37,364 bases of DNA, from NCBI GenBank assembly GCA_945883695.1, contig CAMCYK010000033.1, forward strand, positions 1 to 37,364, written 5' to 3'. The stretch comes from Akkermansia muciniphila. Lineage in GTDB: Bacteria; Verrucomicrobiota; Verrucomicrobiia; Verrucomicrobiales; Akkermansiaceae. Under the pieces are notes generated by a model. The model was given only the letters and a program-made list of their open reading frames with translations. It was not told the DNA's origin and ran no database searches. Both the position numbers and the translations under genes were made by a program. Positions 7,441-34,544 of the stretch are shown here, piece by piece. How positions within the stretch are numbered: position 1 is the first letter of the stretch; every line of letters begins with the position of its first letter.

Positions 7441-7587
7441 AAGACTTCAAGACGGAAGACTCAAGACGCGAAGAATCAGGACCGGAGGAGTCACCACAAG
7501 GGAGGAGCACGGGCGGGAGTCCGCAGTAGCGCAGGTCCGTCTCCGGTCTTGTGTCTTGTGTCTTGTGTCTTCCCGTCTTGTGTCTCT
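7441..7587. repeat. Intergenic repeat family E (AAGAC/GTCTT words)
   Basis: The left part on the plus strand has AAGAC words (AAGACTTCAAGAC, GAAGACTCAAGACG at about 7441-7467). The right part (7549-7584) is built of GTCTTGTGTCTTGTGTCTT units. On the minus strand the right block begins directly at the stop codon of the sugar-phosphate transferase (TGA at 7590-7588). No coding potential or intact mobile element is seen between the two blocks. Confidence 0.7.
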
Positions 7588-14164: not shown

Positions 14165-14642
14165 AAAACAAGCGCAGCACCGCCGGAACCTCCTCGCCGG
14201 TTTCATGCAGCTCCAGCACCGCCAGCTCCGCCCGGCGCGCGACCGTCCGGGCCACGTCCAGTCCCGCCCGGGCCATCGAATGTTCGGCCCCGGGGCGCGC
14301 CCAGCCTTTGAAGACGATCCCCCGCTTTTCGAAATCCCGCGCGGTCTCCACCAGCCACGCCAGATCTTCCTCCCCCACCGCCGCGAAGCCCGCCTCCCGG
14401 TAGCGCTCCTCGTCCCCCGGCAGGCAGGCGAACTGCCCCATCAGCCCCACCAGGAGGTCCTGCACCCGGTCGATCACCCGCTCGATCTCCTCCATCGCCC
14501 CGGCCGCCCGCGCCAAACCCAGCGCCGCGTTCAGTTCGTCCACCGTCCCCAGCACCGCCACCCGCCGCGAGGTCTTGGCAATCCGCCGCCCGAACAGCAG
14601 GTCGGTGTCCCCTTCGTCGCCCCGGCCGGTGATGATGCTCAT
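14118..14642 (-). CDS. Cob(I)alamin adenosyltransferase, PduO type
   Basis: A 174-residue protein starting MSIITGRGDEGDTDLLFG, the N-terminal ATP-binding signature of PduO-type enzymes (TGxGDxGxT). It has VDELNAALGLARA in the middle and HSMARAGLDVARTVARRAE and FFNRLSDLLWILARTA toward the end. It transfers the adenosyl group of ATP to cob(I)alamin to make coenzyme B12. ATG 14642 follows a C-rich leader without a Shine-Dalgarno. The leader is a near-copy of the one before the divergent queE. Confidence 0.92.
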   Translation of the reverse strand: MSIITGRGDEGDTDLLFGRRIAKTSRRVAVLGTVDELNAALGLARAAGAMEEIERVIDRVQDLLVGLMGQFACLPGDEERYREAGFAAVGEEDLAWLVETARDFEKRGIVFKGWARPGAEHSMARAGLDVARTVARRAELAVLELHETGEEVPAVLRLFFNRLSDLLWILARTA

Positions 14643-14655
14643 GGGGGAAGCCAAG

Positions 14656-14794
14656 CACCAATCATCAATCTTCCAATCATCAATCAGGGTGCTTTGAAGA
14701 AGTTTTGCCTCCGCGAGCGGGTGGCAGGCGGATTCATTCCAGTCGACCGCGTCAGGGGCACTTCGTTTGGTGATTGGAAGATTGATGATTGGTG
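14656..14794. repeat. 24-bp perfect inverted repeat forming twin leaders of divergent genes
   Basis: Arms 14656-14679 and 14771-14794 are exact reverse complements over 24 bp, separated by 91 bp. They are made of AATCATCAATC-like words (family B). Each arm ends 13 bp from a start codon (14642 on minus, 14808 on plus). The remaining bases are also alike (CTTCCCCC-ATG and CTTCCCCCC-ATG), so both genes begin with the same ~37-nt leader. Confidence 0.9.
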
Positions 14795-14807
14795 ATTTCT
14801 TCCCCCC

Positions 14808-15560
14808 ATGCTCCTCGCCCGCCTCGACGACGGTCCGGAAATCTTCCACACCCTCCAAGGCGAAGGCGTGTCGGCGGGACTGCCGGCCGTCTTCATCCGC
14901 TCCGCCCTTTGCAACCTCCATTGCCGCTGGTGCGACACCGACCACACCTGGAATTTCGAAGGCACGCCCTGGCCGCACGACAAGGACGCCGACCCGGCCT
15001 ACCGCAAGCACCGCAAGGCCGACGTGACCCTGGAAATGCCGGCCGCCGCGATCGTCGCACGCGTCGCCGCCTACCCCTGCCGCCGGGTGGTCCTGACCGG
15101 TGGCGAGCCGTTGCTCCAGCAGGACGGCTGGCTCGCGGTGATCGCCGGCCTGCGCGCGCTGGATCCCGCCTACCGCTTCGAAGTGGAAACCAACGGCACC
15201 AAGCGGCCGACGCCGGAGTTCCGCGCGGCGGTCGACCAGTTCAATGTTTCGCCCAAGCTGGCCAACTCCGGGATGGAGGAGCGGCTGCGGACCGCCCCGG
15301 ACGTTCTCGCCGACCTCGCCTCCGAGCCAAAGGCCTGGTTCAAATTCGTCGCCCGGGACGAGGCCGACCTCGCGGAAATCGCCGCCTTTGCCACCCGCTT
15401 CGCCATCGTCCCGGAGCGGGTGCTGGTGATGCCGGAAGGCCGCACGTCCGCCGATCTGGACCGCCACGCGCTGGCCATCGCCAGCGGCTGCATCGCGCGC
15501 GGCTGGCGTTTCTGCGACCGCCTCCATGTCCGCCTGTGGGGCGACCGCCGCGGCGTGTGA
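14808..15560 (+). CDS. queE: 7-carboxy-7-deazaguanine synthase (radical SAM)
   Basis: 250 residues. IFHTLQGEGVSAGLPAVFIR and the cluster motif CNLHCRWC (Cys 35, 39, 42; CX3CX2C with W) followed by DTDHTWNF are diagnostic of QueE. VVLTGGEPLL and the FEVETNGT strand follow. The enzyme contracts carboxy-tetrahydropterin to 7-carboxy-7-deazaguanine in the queuosine and deazapurine pathway. Other que genes are not in the window. Start at ATG 14808 after a C-rich leader. nspC follows 151 bp downstream, with a repeat in the gap. Confidence 0.94.
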   Translation: MLLARLDDGPEIFHTLQGEGVSAGLPAVFIRSALCNLHCRWCDTDHTWNFEGTPWPHDKDADPAYRKHRKADVTLEMPAAAIVARVAAYPCRRVVLTGGEPLLQQDGWLAVIAGLRALDPAYRFEVETNGTKRPTPEFRAAVDQFNVSPKLANSGMEERLRTAPDVLADLASEPKAWFKFVARDEADLAEIAAFATRFAIVPERVLVMPEGRTSADLDRHALAIASGCIARGWRFCDRLHVRLWGDRRGV

Positions 15561-15664
15561 GCGCGACCGCCGCCAAGCGGCCGCGCCGTCAGTCCGCCCG
15601 CCGCTCGCGCCCCGGCAAAAGCAGCGACAGCACTGCCATCGCCACCAGCGCGCCGCCCTCATCG

Positions 15665-15702
15665 GAATTTGGAACTTGGCACTTCCCCCCCTGGCACTTC
15701 CT
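15665..15702. repeat. Repeat family C copy upstream of nspC
   Basis: GGAACTTGGCACTTCC followed by a second GGCACTTCC after a C-run. These are the reverse-complement words of the copies at 16579-16613 and 34492-34522. It ends 10 bp before the chosen nspC start. Confidence 0.75.
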
Positions 15703-15711
15703 CCTCTCCCC

Positions 15712-16950
15712 GTGGCCTCCTTCGTCGTCTCCATCGCCGCGCTCCGGCGCAACACCGCCCTGCTCCGCGCAACCGCCGATGCCGCGGGCTGCAAGATCGT
15801 CCTCGCGCTGAAGGGCTTCTCCTGCTGGAAGGCCTTCCCCCATTTCCGCGAGCACCTCGACGGCTGCTGCGCCTCGGGCCTGTGGGAAGCCGAGCTGGCC
15901 CGCGACTACTTCGGCAAGCAGGTCGTCACCTACTCGCCCGCCTATCAGGAGGAGGAAATCCGCCAGCTCTGCGGGTTCACCCACCACCTCGACTTCAACT
16001 CGCTCTCCCAGTGGTTCCGCTTCCGGGACATCGTGATGGAACATCCGCGCTTCAAGAACGGCCAGCTCCACTGCGGCCTGCGGATCAATCCCGAATGCTC
16101 CACCGGTGCCACCCCGCTCTACGATCCCTGCGTCGCCGGCTCGCGGCTCGGCATCACCGCCGACCAGCTCGCGGGTGCCGATCTAACGGGCTTGTCCGGC
16201 CTGCATTTCCACACGCTGTGCGAGCAGGACTCCGACGACCTGGAGAAAACCCTCGCTGCGGTCGATGAGAAGTTCGGCCACCTCCTCCGCTCGCCGCAGT
16301 TCACGTATCTCAACATGGGCGGCGGACACTGGATCACCAAGCCCTTCTACGATCGCGACCGCCTGATCCGCCTGGTCCGCGAGACCCTCACCAAATACGG
16401 CGTCGAGGTCTGGCTTGAGCCCGGCGAGGCCAATGCGATCCACACCGGCGTGCTCCGCGCGACGGTGCTCGATGTCTTCGAAAGCATGGGCCACCGCCAC
16501 GCCATCCTCGACATCTCCGCCACCGCCCACATGCCGGACGTCCTCGAAATGCCCTACCGCCCCGATGTCTTTCTCGTCGAAAGTTCCAAGTCCGAAGTGC
16601 CAAGTGCCAATGCGCCCTGCGTCACTTTCGAAGGCGAATCCTATATCCCCGCCACCGACCCATCTTCCGCCAATCCACAATCGACAATCATCCATCATCA
16701 ATCGTCAATCTCCCACCGCCTCGGCGGCCCGACCTGCCTCGCCGGCGACGTCACCGGCGACTTCGCCTTCCCCCGCCCGCTGGAGGTCGGCGACATCCTC
16801 GTCTTCGACGACATGGCGCACTACACGATGGTGAAGACGACGACCTTCAACGGCGTCCCGCACCCGTCGATCGTGCTCCAGCACGAGGACGGCCGCCTCG
16901 AAACGATCCGCGAGTTCGGCTATCCGGACTTCCGCGACCGGCTGAGTTGA
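15712..16950 (+). CDS. nspC: Carboxynorspermidine decarboxylase
   Basis: 412 residues from GTG 15712 (VASFVVSIAALRRN). This is a PLP-dependent fold III decarboxylase: the Lys of LALKGFSCWK binds PLP, YLNMGGGHWI is the phosphate-binding glycine loop, EPGEANAIHTG holds conserved acids, and GGPTCLAGDVTGDF contains the active-site Cys. It makes norspermidine or spermidine from the carboxy form. From MPYRP to RLGG the protein is about 51 residues where homologs, as remembered, have about 15. The surplus coincides with two repeats (16579-16613 and 16661-16717) read in frame. Core motifs are intact, so activity is plausible. Confidence 0.9.
   Translation: MASFVVSIAALRRNTALLRATADAAGCKIVLALKGFSCWKAFPHFREHLDGCCASGLWEAELARDYFGKQVVTYSPAYQEEEIRQLCGFTHHLDFNSLSQWFRFRDIVMEHPRFKNGQLHCGLRINPECSTGATPLYDPCVAGSRLGITADQLAGADLTGLSGLHFHTLCEQDSDDLEKTLAAVDEKFGHLLRSPQFTYLNMGGGHWITKPFYDRDRLIRLVRETLTKYGVEVWLEPGEANAIHTGVLRATVLDVFESMGHRHAILDISATAHMPDVLEMPYRPDVFLVESSKSEVPSANAPCVTFEGESYIPATDPSSANPQSTIIHHQSSISHRLGGPTCLAGDVTGDFAFPRPLEVGDILVFDDMAHYTMVKTTTFNGVPHPSIVLQHEDGRLETIREFGYPDFRDRLS
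16579..16613 (+). repeat. Repeat family C copy inside nspC
   Basis: AAGTTCCAAGTCCGAAGTGC with following AAGTGCC words, the same vocabulary as the copies at 15665 and 34492. It is read in the nspC frame as ESSKSEVPSANA, peptide text not typical of the enzyme family. Confidence 0.8.
16661..16717 (+). repeat. Repeat family B copy inside nspC
   Basis: Successive CAATC words (CAATCCACAATCGACAATC, then ATCATCAATCGTCAATC) match the style of the 14656-14794 arms. They are read in frame as NPQSTIIHHQSSISH, just before the conserved RLGGPTCLAGD of the decarboxylase. Confidence 0.75.
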
Positions 16951-16966
16951 GCGTCCCGCCCCAGCC

Positions 16967-16998
16967 GAAGTAGCGCAACTTTGCAAGTTGCGTGCTTC
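16967..16998 (+). repeat. Repeat family A, palindromic copy after nspC
   Basis: GAAGTAGCGCAACTTTGCAA followed by GTTGCGTGCTTC. The core GCAACTT-TGC-AAGTTGC is a hairpin, and GAAG/CTTC ends pair as an outer stem. It starts 17 bp after the nspC stop, reading in the direction of transcription. Confidence 0.9.
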
Positions 16999-17134: not shown

Positions 17135-17163
17135 GCGCGCAACTTGCAAAGTCGCGCTACTTC
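17135..17163 (-). repeat. Repeat family A copy overlapping the ABC ATPase stop
   Basis: The reverse complement reads GAAGTAGCGCGACTTTGCAA then GTTGCGCGC. The TAG of GAAGTAGC is the stop codon of the ATP-binding protein (GAC GCG AAG TAG). The copy is inverted relative to 16967-16998 because the two genes converge. Confidence 0.9.
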
Positions 17164-17924
17164 GCGTCCCGCGCTCCACTTACCGTTGCAACGTGCCCAT
17201 GCTCCTCCTCCGCCACGATCGTTCCCCCGCTCATCTTGACCACCCGCCGCGCCTTCGCCGCCAGCGCCGGATCATGGGTCACCAGCACCAGCGCGGTACC
17301 CGCGTCGCGGTTGAGGCGGAACAGCATCTCGACGATCGGGCCGCTGGTCTCGGCGTCGAGGTTGCCGGTCGGCTCGTCGGCGAAGAGAATCTTCGGCCGG
17401 TGGATGAAGGCGCGGGCCAGGGCGACGCGCTGCTGCTCGCCGCCGGAAAGTTGCAGCGGGTAGTGGTCAAGCCGGTCGCCGAGACCGACTTCCGTCAGCA
17501 GCGCTTCCGCCTCCTTCTCCCGCCCCCGCTCGCCGCGCAGTTCCAGCGGGACGAGCACGTTCTCGATCGCGGTCAGCGTCGGGATCAGCTGGAAACTCTG
17601 GAAGACGAAGCCGACCAGCCGGTTGCGCAGCGCCGCGCGGGCGTCCTGGTCGAGCGATTCCATCGCCTGGCCGTCGAGCAGGACCGAGCCGCTGGTGGCG
17701 TCGTCAAGGCCCGCGCAGAGGCCGAGCAAGGTCGTCTTGCCGCTGCCGGAGGGGCCGATGATCGCCATCGTGTCGCCCTCCTCCAAGGCCAGCGAGACGT
17801 CCCGCAGCACCGTCAGCTCGTGGCTGGCGGTGCGATGGACTTTCTTGAGGTCGCGCACCTCGAGCAGCGTCCGTTTGACAGCTCGGGGGGCGGGTTCTAG
17901 GCTGGCGGGCGATGCGGATGACAT
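17157..17924 (-). CDS. ABC transporter ATP-binding protein, YbbA/LolD-like
   Basis: 255 residues with Walker A GPSGSGKTT, signature LSGGEQQRVALARA, Walker B ILFADEPTGNLD and the H-loop VTHD. This places it in the LolD/MacB/YbbA subfamily, whose permease partners are MacB-like proteins of the inner membrane. It lies head-to-head with a TesA-like gene as in the Escherichia coli ybbA-tesA pair, but no permease gene follows: the next gene is convergent nspC. The ATG at 17924 lies inside the start of the divergent gene, giving a 13-bp overlap. The last codons DAK-stop come from repeat A. Confidence 0.9.
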   Translation of the reverse strand: MSSASPASLEPAPRAVKRTLLEVRDLKKVHRTASHELTVLRDVSLALEEGDTMAIIGPSGSGKTTLLGLCAGLDDATSGSVLLDGQAMESLDQDARAALRNRLVGFVFQSFQLIPTLTAIENVLVPLELRGERGREKEAEALLTEVGLGDRLDHYPLQLSGGEQQRVALARAFIHRPKILFADEPTGNLDAETSGPIVEMLFRLNRDAGTALVLVTHDPALAAKARRVVKMSGGTIVAEEEHGHVATVSGARDAK

Positions 17925-18675: not shown

Positions 18676-18692
18676 CTCCGATCAGGCAGCCG

Positions 18693-18794
18693 CCCCAAGG
18701 AGTGTGGACCTTTGGGCAACACGGTGTCGACGGCACGACGCCACGACGCGGCAACCCCAAGGAGTGTGGACCTTTGGTCAACACGGTGTCGACG
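18693..18794. repeat. Two 40-bp direct repeats, family F
   Basis: Copies 18693-18732 and 18755-18794 differ at one base (start CCCCAAGGAGTGTGGACCTT; end CAACACGGTGTCGACG) and are 62 bp apart. A nearby GTCGACACTCCT (about 18799-18810) is an inverted version of AGGAGTGTGGAC. GTCGAC and GTGGAC words recur at 25643-25681. Confidence 0.85.
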
Positions 18795-18824
18795 CCACGT
18801 CGACACTCCTCAGGGCGGCTCGGG

Positions 18825-33355: not shown

Positions 33356-34507
33356 ATGAAGCGCGCCCTGATTCTCGCCCTCCTGCTTCCCCTCCACGCC
33401 GAGGAAGCCGCACCCTCCGTCATCCCGCCACCGCCCGACGACGGCGTGCGGGTGTCGGTGCTCGGCTACCACGATTTCTCCGAGACCGCCCCCGAGACCG
33501 AGATGCTGATCCGCACCTCGAAGTTCCGGACCCAGATGGAGGCGATCAAAAACCTCGGCCTGCCGGTCATCCCGATGGCCGATTTCCAAGCCTGGAAACG
33601 CGGCGAAAAGGAAATCGCGGACAAGAGCATCGTCATCACCATCGATGACGGCTGGAAGGCCGTCTACACCGACGCCTTCCCGATCCTCAAGGAATTCGGC
33701 TACCCCTTCACCCTCTTCCTCTACAAGAACTACGTCGACGGCGGTGGCAAGGCCCTGACCACCCCGATGATCGAGGAAATGCAGAAGCACGGGGCGACCG
33801 TCGGCAGCCACTCGGTCAGCCATCCCTACCCCGGCACCGTGAAATCCCATCGCCGCAAGGGGACGGAGCATTTCGACAAGTTCCTGCGCAAGGAACTCGG
33901 CGAGTCGAAGCGCTTCCTCGAATCGAAGTTCGGCGCGCGGGTGACCACCTACGCCTACCCCGGCGGCTTCCACACCGAGGAAATGTTTCCGCTGGCGGAA
34001 GAGTTCGGCTACGAGCTCCTGTTCACCGTCCTGCCCGGCAAAATCCGCCGCTCGCACGAGAACCGCACCCTGCCCCGCTACGTCATCCTCGGCACCCACG
34101 ACCGGATCTTCGACCTCGCCACCGGCTTCAACGAGATCGCCGTCGCCGCCATTTCCGAAAGCGCGGTCATCGCCCCGCAAAGCACGCCCTTCCCGGTGAC
34201 GCCCGGGGCCGGTTCGCTCATCGACACCCGCATGCCACGGCTCTCGGCCGACCTCTCCACCCTCGCGGATTTCGATCCCAAGACCCTGGTGATGAAGGTC
34301 GGCGGCTTCGGCGAGGTCCCCGCCATGTTCGACGAGGAAAACAAATCCTTCTCCTGGCAAGTCAACCGCCGCCTGCGCTCGCCCGTTTGCCAGGTCGCCG
34401 TGAGCTGGCTCGACAGCAAGGGCAAGCCACCCGAAATCCCCCTCCGCTGGTCCTTCCGCATCGACCCGGAAGCCGCCTACCTGCCGCTGGAGGAAAGTTC
34501 CAAGTAA
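33356..34507 (+). CDS. Secreted polysaccharide deacetylase (NodB/CE4-like)
   Basis: 383 residues with a short signal peptide (MKRALILALLLPLHA). NodB-homology motifs: IVITIDDGWKAVY (catalytic and metal Asp pair), GSHSVSHPYPG (metal His pair) and TTYAYPGGFHTEE. The C-terminal ~110 residues form an extra beta-rich domain. CE4 enzymes remove N- or O-acetyl groups from sugars. Located 67 bp after the DUF5722-type gene. Its final codons, GAA AGT TCC AAG TAA, lie inside a family C repeat, so the repeat supplies the stop. Confidence 0.9.
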   Translation: MKRALILALLLPLHAEEAAPSVIPPPPDDGVRVSVLGYHDFSETAPETEMLIRTSKFRTQMEAIKNLGLPVIPMADFQAWKRGEKEIADKSIVITIDDGWKAVYTDAFPILKEFGYPFTLFLYKNYVDGGGKALTTPMIEEMQKHGATVGSHSVSHPYPGTVKSHRRKGTEHFDKFLRKELGESKRFLESKFGARVTTYAYPGGFHTEEMFPLAEEFGYELLFTVLPGKIRRSHENRTLPRYVILGTHDRIFDLATGFNEIAVAAISESAVIAPQSTPFPVTPGAGSLIDTRMPRLSADLSTLADFDPKTLVMKVGGFGEVPAMFDEENKSFSWQVNRRLRSPVCQVAVSWLDSKGKPPEIPLRWSFRIDPEAAYLPLEESSK

Positions 34508-34522
34508 GAAGTTCCATGTGCC
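34492..34522 (+). repeat. Repeat family C copy at the deacetylase stop codon
   Basis: AAAGTTCCAAGTAAGAAGTT followed by CCATGTGCC. It shares AAAGTTCCAAGT and GTGCC words with 16579-16613. The TAA at 34505-34507 is the deacetylase stop. Confidence 0.8.
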
Positions 34523-34544
34523 AACCCGGGCACCACCAGACCGA

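Follow-up and report, generated by a model that had tools for sequence, protein, structure and literature searches.

Probable recurrent in-frame entry of intergenic heptamer repeats into loop slots of carboxynorspermidine decarboxylase in Akkermansiaceae

The DNA under study, referred to here as the window, is a stretch of 37,364 nucleotides from Akkermansia muciniphila (GCA_945883695.1, contig CAMCYK010000033.1). At 15712..16950 on the + strand it carries nspC, for a carboxynorspermidine decarboxylase of 412 aa with a putative GTG start. The assignment is based on the open frame, on TIGR01047, for which the product scores 435.3 bits against a curated cut-off of 409.05, and on the solved NspC structures, which it matches with E down to 3e-105. 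Residues that are invariant columns in a 57-sequence alignment of the family, K34, C342 and D346 among them, are kept, and the claim in the initial annotation that catalytic motifs outside the loop discussed below are intact is confirmed. Outside that loop dN/dS is 0.07-0.17 against six relatives, and the gene is under purifying selection.

Two slots in this gene are made of repeat DNA. Slot 1, at 16579..16613 (+), holds repeat C, four heptamers (AAGTTCC, AAGTCCG, AAGTGCC and AAGTGCC) followed by AA, which makes up residues 290-301 and encodes SSKSEVPSAN. Slot 2, at 16661..16717 (+), holds repeat B, an array of CAATCNN/CCATCNN heptamers making up residues 317-336 and encoding SANPQSTIIHHQSSIS. 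The reading frame is open across both, and the initial annotation was right to place both in frame at these positions. The GC content is 0.51 for repeat C and 0.47 for repeat B, compared with 0.66 elsewhere in the gene, and both are unstructured, with folds of -0.3 kcal/mol (z 1.2) and -0.5 kcal/mol (z -0.2) respectively.

Both repeats had also been seen between genes in the window, and further copies of each were located there. In the case of repeat C there is a copy on the opposite (-) strand at 15662..15700, just upstream of the nspC start codon, and an intergenic copy at 34495..34524 (+). The sequence AAGTGCCAAGTGCCAA has 71 matches with up to 2 mismatches in its own 6.3 Mb genome, where the reversed control has 1; the 30-nt element is present in 12 of 18 genomes of the genus, with none for the controls. 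In the case of repeat B the sequence CAATCATCAATCATCAATC has 295 matches with up to 3 mismatches in its own genome, against 0 for the reversed control, and the other copies in the window are at 14650-14673 and 14775-14800. These two form an inverted intergenic pair, a MITE-like hairpin without assigned strand at 14640..14810, with 53-nt arms that are 81% complementary and a fold z of -4.3; we rejected them as in-gene arrays, the frame of the adenosyltransferase gene involved being over-extended. Inverted pairs of repeat B, this one included, have AAATCACCAATCATCAATC-like arms at a distance of about 170 bp, with many at similar spacing in genome G008, and they are likely to be a MITE family.

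Repeats B and C are two of many such families. The genome also has CCATCNN, TGATCAC, AAGACNN and others, in arrays that sometimes change word in register and often occur as inverted pairs. Tracts with a lag of 7 are intergenic in 39 of 59 cases, in the approximately 15% of the DNA that is non-coding, and intergenic tracts at lags 8, 10 and 11 number 14, 9 and 6. STRR of cyanobacteria are heptameric tandem repeats, and the elements here are STRR-like in having a 7-nt unit, in tandem, dispersed and mainly intergenic. An inverted pair of the AAGACNN / GTCTTNN family lies between genes at 7449-7469 and 7539-7574 in the window, and another intergenic stretch, 18686-18806, has a direct repeat of about 59 nt (CCAAGGAGTGTGGACCTTTGGNCAACACGGTGTCGACG) in two copies that are 88% identical and 62 nt apart.

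Just 3' of nspC, at 16966..16996 and without assigned strand, is a REP-like palindrome, GTAGCGCAACTTTGCAAGTTGCG, of window family A and not B or C. It forms a hairpin of -16.8 kcal/mol (z -3.7), has an inverted partner at 17135-17164, and with its 5' GTAG followed by a stem-loop it classes as a GTAG REP. There are 28 matches to Y1_Tnp in the genome, and given these it is plausible that the REPs are moved by Y1/RAYT enzymes. Heptamer arrays are not generally beside Y1 transposase genes, lying within about 2 kb of them in 3 of 20 fetched regions. At the contig end (37102-37364) there are three copies of a 96-nt tandem unit, each with a GTAG-type REP (GAAGTAGCACAACTTTGCAAGTTGTG).

The two slots lie in a loop between MPYRP and RLGG; it is 51 residues long in this protein, and most homologs outside Akkermansiaceae have about 15. 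The initial annotation had given both lengths correctly and had read the loop as domesticated repeats, but about 34 residues belong to an older, repeat-free extension. In Akkermansiaceae without repeats (as in G003 and UBA1315) the loop has 34 residues, among them a conserved PAVxxxGExY island, and of the difference only about 17 residues can be tied to the repeat-bearing stretches; G014 and G001 have loops of about 47-49 aa without heptamers. In our gene the island, CVTFEGESYIPA, is encoded at 16624..16659 (+) between the slots, and by alignment and an AlphaFold model (AF2 pLDDT about 92) it includes an extra strand, residues 309-313, of this family-level extension. The model as a whole has a mean pLDDT of 89.8, falling to about 61 at residues 291-300 and about 50 at 321-330, stretches that coincide with repeats C and B, and the slots are thus predicted to be disordered. 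As repeat-free Akkermansiaceae already have the two-part loop with its conserved strand, the loop is older than the repeats; it is ancestral in the family and was not created by them.

Comparison was made with 18 genomes of the same genus (the G-numbered genomes) and with other Akkermansiaceae. An alignment of NspC proteins, which the initial annotation had proposed as a check, finds that in several relatives the loop is both variable and coded by repeats. In seven of the 18 the nspC slots have heptamer words, which are of several kinds, and lag-7 periodicity of the loop exceeds that of codon shuffles (p <=0.004) in G000, G010, G007, G015, G012, G017 and G013, with lags 4, 5, 8, 10 and 11 scoring lower than lag 7 in those seven. 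Repeat C is orthologous between G000 and G010, and slot 2 has CAATC or CCATC words in G000, G010 and G007 (CCATCAA in G007), the last having a REP-like hairpin in place of heptamers in slot 1. The words are degenerate AAGTTCC in G012, CACTCCG in G015, an inverted AGTTCAG/TGAACTC pair in G017, and GCGCGGA/GCAATCC in G013, while other Akkermansiaceae (L135, L137 and L138) have CCAGAGA, CCAATCT and similar words. Slot peptides are unrelated even among close relatives, as with SSKSEVPSAN, TGSAGFSRPE and KGELETTSLT. Carriers of repeats are scattered on a tree of NspC, PriA and LeuRS, which points to several gains or to complete replacements of words.

By the match counts in these genomes, the word in a slot tends to be one that is abundant in the same genome. 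GAACTCT words have 30 matches in G017, whose slots carry them, and 0-4 in each of the other 17 genomes. CAATCNN has 371 (as CAATCNN x3), 167 and 84 matches in G000, G010 and G007, where slot 2 carries it, and 0 in G004, G002 and G005, which have no CAATCNN slot. We had considered CACTCCG as strictly specific to G015, but three-mismatch matches are present in every genome and the case is suggestive only; among the places listed, G015 has the largest number of closer matches if CACTCGG arrays in G012 and G000 are left aside. In G017 nspC (L073) the words in slots 1 and 2 are reverse complements and the coding mRNA would form a long hairpin (z -6.2). Such pairing of the slots is absent in G000, and we dropped it as a general requirement.

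Other housekeeping proteins, PriA and LeuRS, have sites that behave like the NspC slots. In PriA the site is the linker before Walker A, which has CAATC arrays in G000, G010 and G007. In G012 and G017 this linker has element C together with palindromes and TGATCAC words, in G013 it has palindromes along with CACTCGG words, and in G002 it has palindromes; other genomes show nothing recognisable there. A LeuRS loop has CAATC words in G000 and G010 and palindromes in G013 and G017; no repeats were found in this loop in G007 and several other genomes. REP-like hairpins are thus found in nspC, PriA or LeuRS slots of G007, G017, G013 and G002. In the present genome, genes for AlaRS, UvrA, RarA and DNA ligase also carry in-frame arrays, as do those for a U32/TrhP protein (five tracts), urea carboxylase (two), an epimerase-like protein without a family match, and a relative of phosphorothioate-dependent restriction endonucleases.

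These arrays come from an unbiased 1.6 Mb sample plus selected regions of the genome. About 7 of some 75 low-GC tracts in the unbiased sample are in genuine genes, which make up 85% of the DNA, giving a tract density in genes roughly fifty-fold below intergenic after five doubtful or mis-extended cases are dropped, as found with a gene caller that needs an open frame and would miss frame-breaking insertions. Candidates set aside were tracts at L104:16458, L217:18533 and L237:12334 (chance or mis-extended gene calls), an array in L385 in an N-terminal extension (a mis-extended call), and the C57 array, which lies 5' of a topoisomerase-like gene and not within it.

The arrays that are in genes differ from those outside in ways that relate to translation. 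The forward codons of CAATCNN are CAA, TCN, NCA, ATC, NNC, AAT and CNN and can never give a stop, whereas the reverse reading can yield TGA or TAG. All seven in-gene arrays of the unbiased sample (six CAATC/CCATC arrays and repeat C) have stop-free coding words, and all six CAATC/CCATC arrays are on the stop-free strand (chance p 0.016), while the repeat B family is strand-balanced genome-wide (153 forward, 142 reverse). A query with the antisense peptide gave the same arrays, nearly all with 1-5 internal stops; the larger set of genes found later came from a sense-peptide query and was left out of the strand test. With regard to element C, unit 2 outside genes is mainly AAGTGAG or AAGTAAG, giving TGA or TAA in the nspC frame. 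It is AAGTCCG in 4 of 4 nspC and PriA copies and in 1 of 61 other copies from G000, G008 and G010 (Fisher p 7e-6, although these represent about two independent events, nspC in G000/G010 and PriA in G012/G017). The search pattern used the AAGTCCG form itself, and the search therefore cannot account for the rarity of that form elsewhere. The copies that survive in genes are filtered, being in frame, on the stop-free strand, and without the TGA or TAA usual in intergenic copies of element C.

The explanation we favour, with a probability of about 0.8, is that lineage-specific intergenic repeats have recurrently entered disordered loop slots in frame, have been tolerated there, and have then undergone turnover. 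Almost any DNA that keeps the frame and is free of stops would be tolerated in the two NspC slots, which flank the family-specific strand. The supply would come from the many dispersed heptamer families and REP-type palindromes, mainly intergenic, of this genome and genus. Families abundant in a given lineage would repeatedly send copies into such slots, those of nspC and of other housekeeping genes alike, the heptamer arrays perhaps spreading by templated recombination with slippage. Selection would spare only the stop-free, frame-keeping versions in flexible loops, and surviving inserts would be translated as extra flexible peptide until replaced by other words. As the frame is kept and stops are avoided we infer that the inserts are translated, and the slot peptide is probably present in the mature protein and roughly neutral. 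We also put forward, tentatively, the wider possibility that the heptamer arrays are mobile or templated DNA of Akkermansiaceae, with some copying process that allows words to be switched in register and fixed loops to be re-entered, giving essential enzymes a peptide that evolves fast, is specific to the lineage and comes from the pool of intergenic repeats.

It is improbable that the heptamers grew by slippage within each gene, independently of the intergenic families. Short tandem units do expand by slippage, and the slots of G013 and G017 resemble one array with its word changed in register, but the words in the slots are those of the lineage's dispersed families, and one 30-nt element with a fixed architecture is common to the copies in nspC and PriA. 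Somewhat less probable again is domestication, as the initial annotation had suggested, with the repeat-coded peptide recruited for a role in NspC such as regulation or partner binding. The loop is family-wide, its central strand is conserved, and by alignment the slots adjoin the C-terminal motif TCLAGD, all of which would fit. However, the two-part loop predates the repeats, peptides of the same kind are found in unrelated enzymes, and the slot peptides, predicted to be disordered, differ completely between near relatives; functional domestication is unsupported for want of this conservation. Recurrent tolerated insertion with turnover, in many genes, is a better fit than one domestication event.

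It is very unlikely that the insertions are skipped, by RNA removal or by ribosome bypass like that of mitochondrial byp elements, to leave a normal protein: some inserts are strong hairpins, such as the inverted pair in G017 nspC, but repeats B and C here have no structure, and skipping would not require the stop avoidance and frame keeping observed. Misassembly or a decayed, unexpressed gene can hardly be credited even for a metagenome-derived draft of 391 contigs, given the orthologous C element in G010 nspC, comparable arrays in several independent assemblies, and the low dN/dS.

In-frame repeats in genes are already known. Rickettsia palindromic elements (RPEs; Ogata 2000/2002), as summarised in PMC10969869, are dispersed, in frame in many unrelated genes, and apparently tolerated. 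The heptamers are like them in being in frame in unrelated housekeeping genes, but the RPEs described in that summary are palindromes of up to about 150 bp, whereas repeats B and C are unstructured tandem heptamers whose words, unlike RPEs as summarised there, differ between species at the same slot. In the account of intragenic REPs in PMC3733652 (Di Nocera 2013), the uvrA and DNA ligase genes of the verrucomicrobium O. terrae are reported to contain GTAG/CGTC REPs, with further cases elsewhere in tRNA synthetases. The account also suggests flexible linkers or loops as their sites, and its passages on these insertions mention no heptamers. Unlike the REPs of that account, repeats B and C lack both the GTAG tag and a palindrome. 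As they are not palindromes they are neither RPEs nor REPs, but within genes their behaviour is like that of both. UvrA is repeat-decorated in both cases, with heptamers and REP-like stretches here and REPs in the O. terrae gene of PMC3733652. The UvrA here, at L390:2458-8424, is a tandem (double) protein of 1989 aa, and there are at least 6 heptamer tracts plus REP-like coding stretches in its linkers.

In the open literature, outside which most subscription journals fall, we found no paper on heptamers inside genes of Verrucomicrobiota, and what is new is the reuse of fixed protein slots by tandem heptamers. They provide a natural series, over at least 18 species, at least 3 comparable slots and about ten genes, of repeat DNA entering, changing in and leaving coding sequence. 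The rules are clear: the strand and word are free of stops, the frame is kept, and the slot is disordered. This makes testable both a route from selfish or structural repeats to protein and the nature of protein sites that accept arbitrary peptide, and it is a warning that differences in loop length between homologs can stem from repeat ecology and not adaptation.

The closest likeness outside genes is to the TAACTGA heptamer direct repeats of Beggiatoaceae, cyanobacteria and Bacteroidetes (MacGregor 2015, PMC4679880), which are also 7-nt tandem units, dispersed, mostly intergenic, and often just 5' of starts, as is repeat C. None of the words here (CAATCNN, AAGTNCC, CCATCNN, TGATCAC, AAGACNN and others) is TAACTGA, and, unlike that case, there are many word families per genome, and those free of stops are found in essential genes; the TAACTGA unit has a stop within it, and its forward copies can overlap genes only at their ends (PMC4679880). 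Intergenic repeat C is mostly within about 50 nt 5' of a start codon, the coding strand then carrying TTGGCACTT (10 of 12 arrays near a start, in loci L001-L030), and by analogy with TAACTGA it may have a role in expression. The nspC gene itself has such a start-proximal copy, at 15662-15700, and this copy is complementary to the one within the gene.
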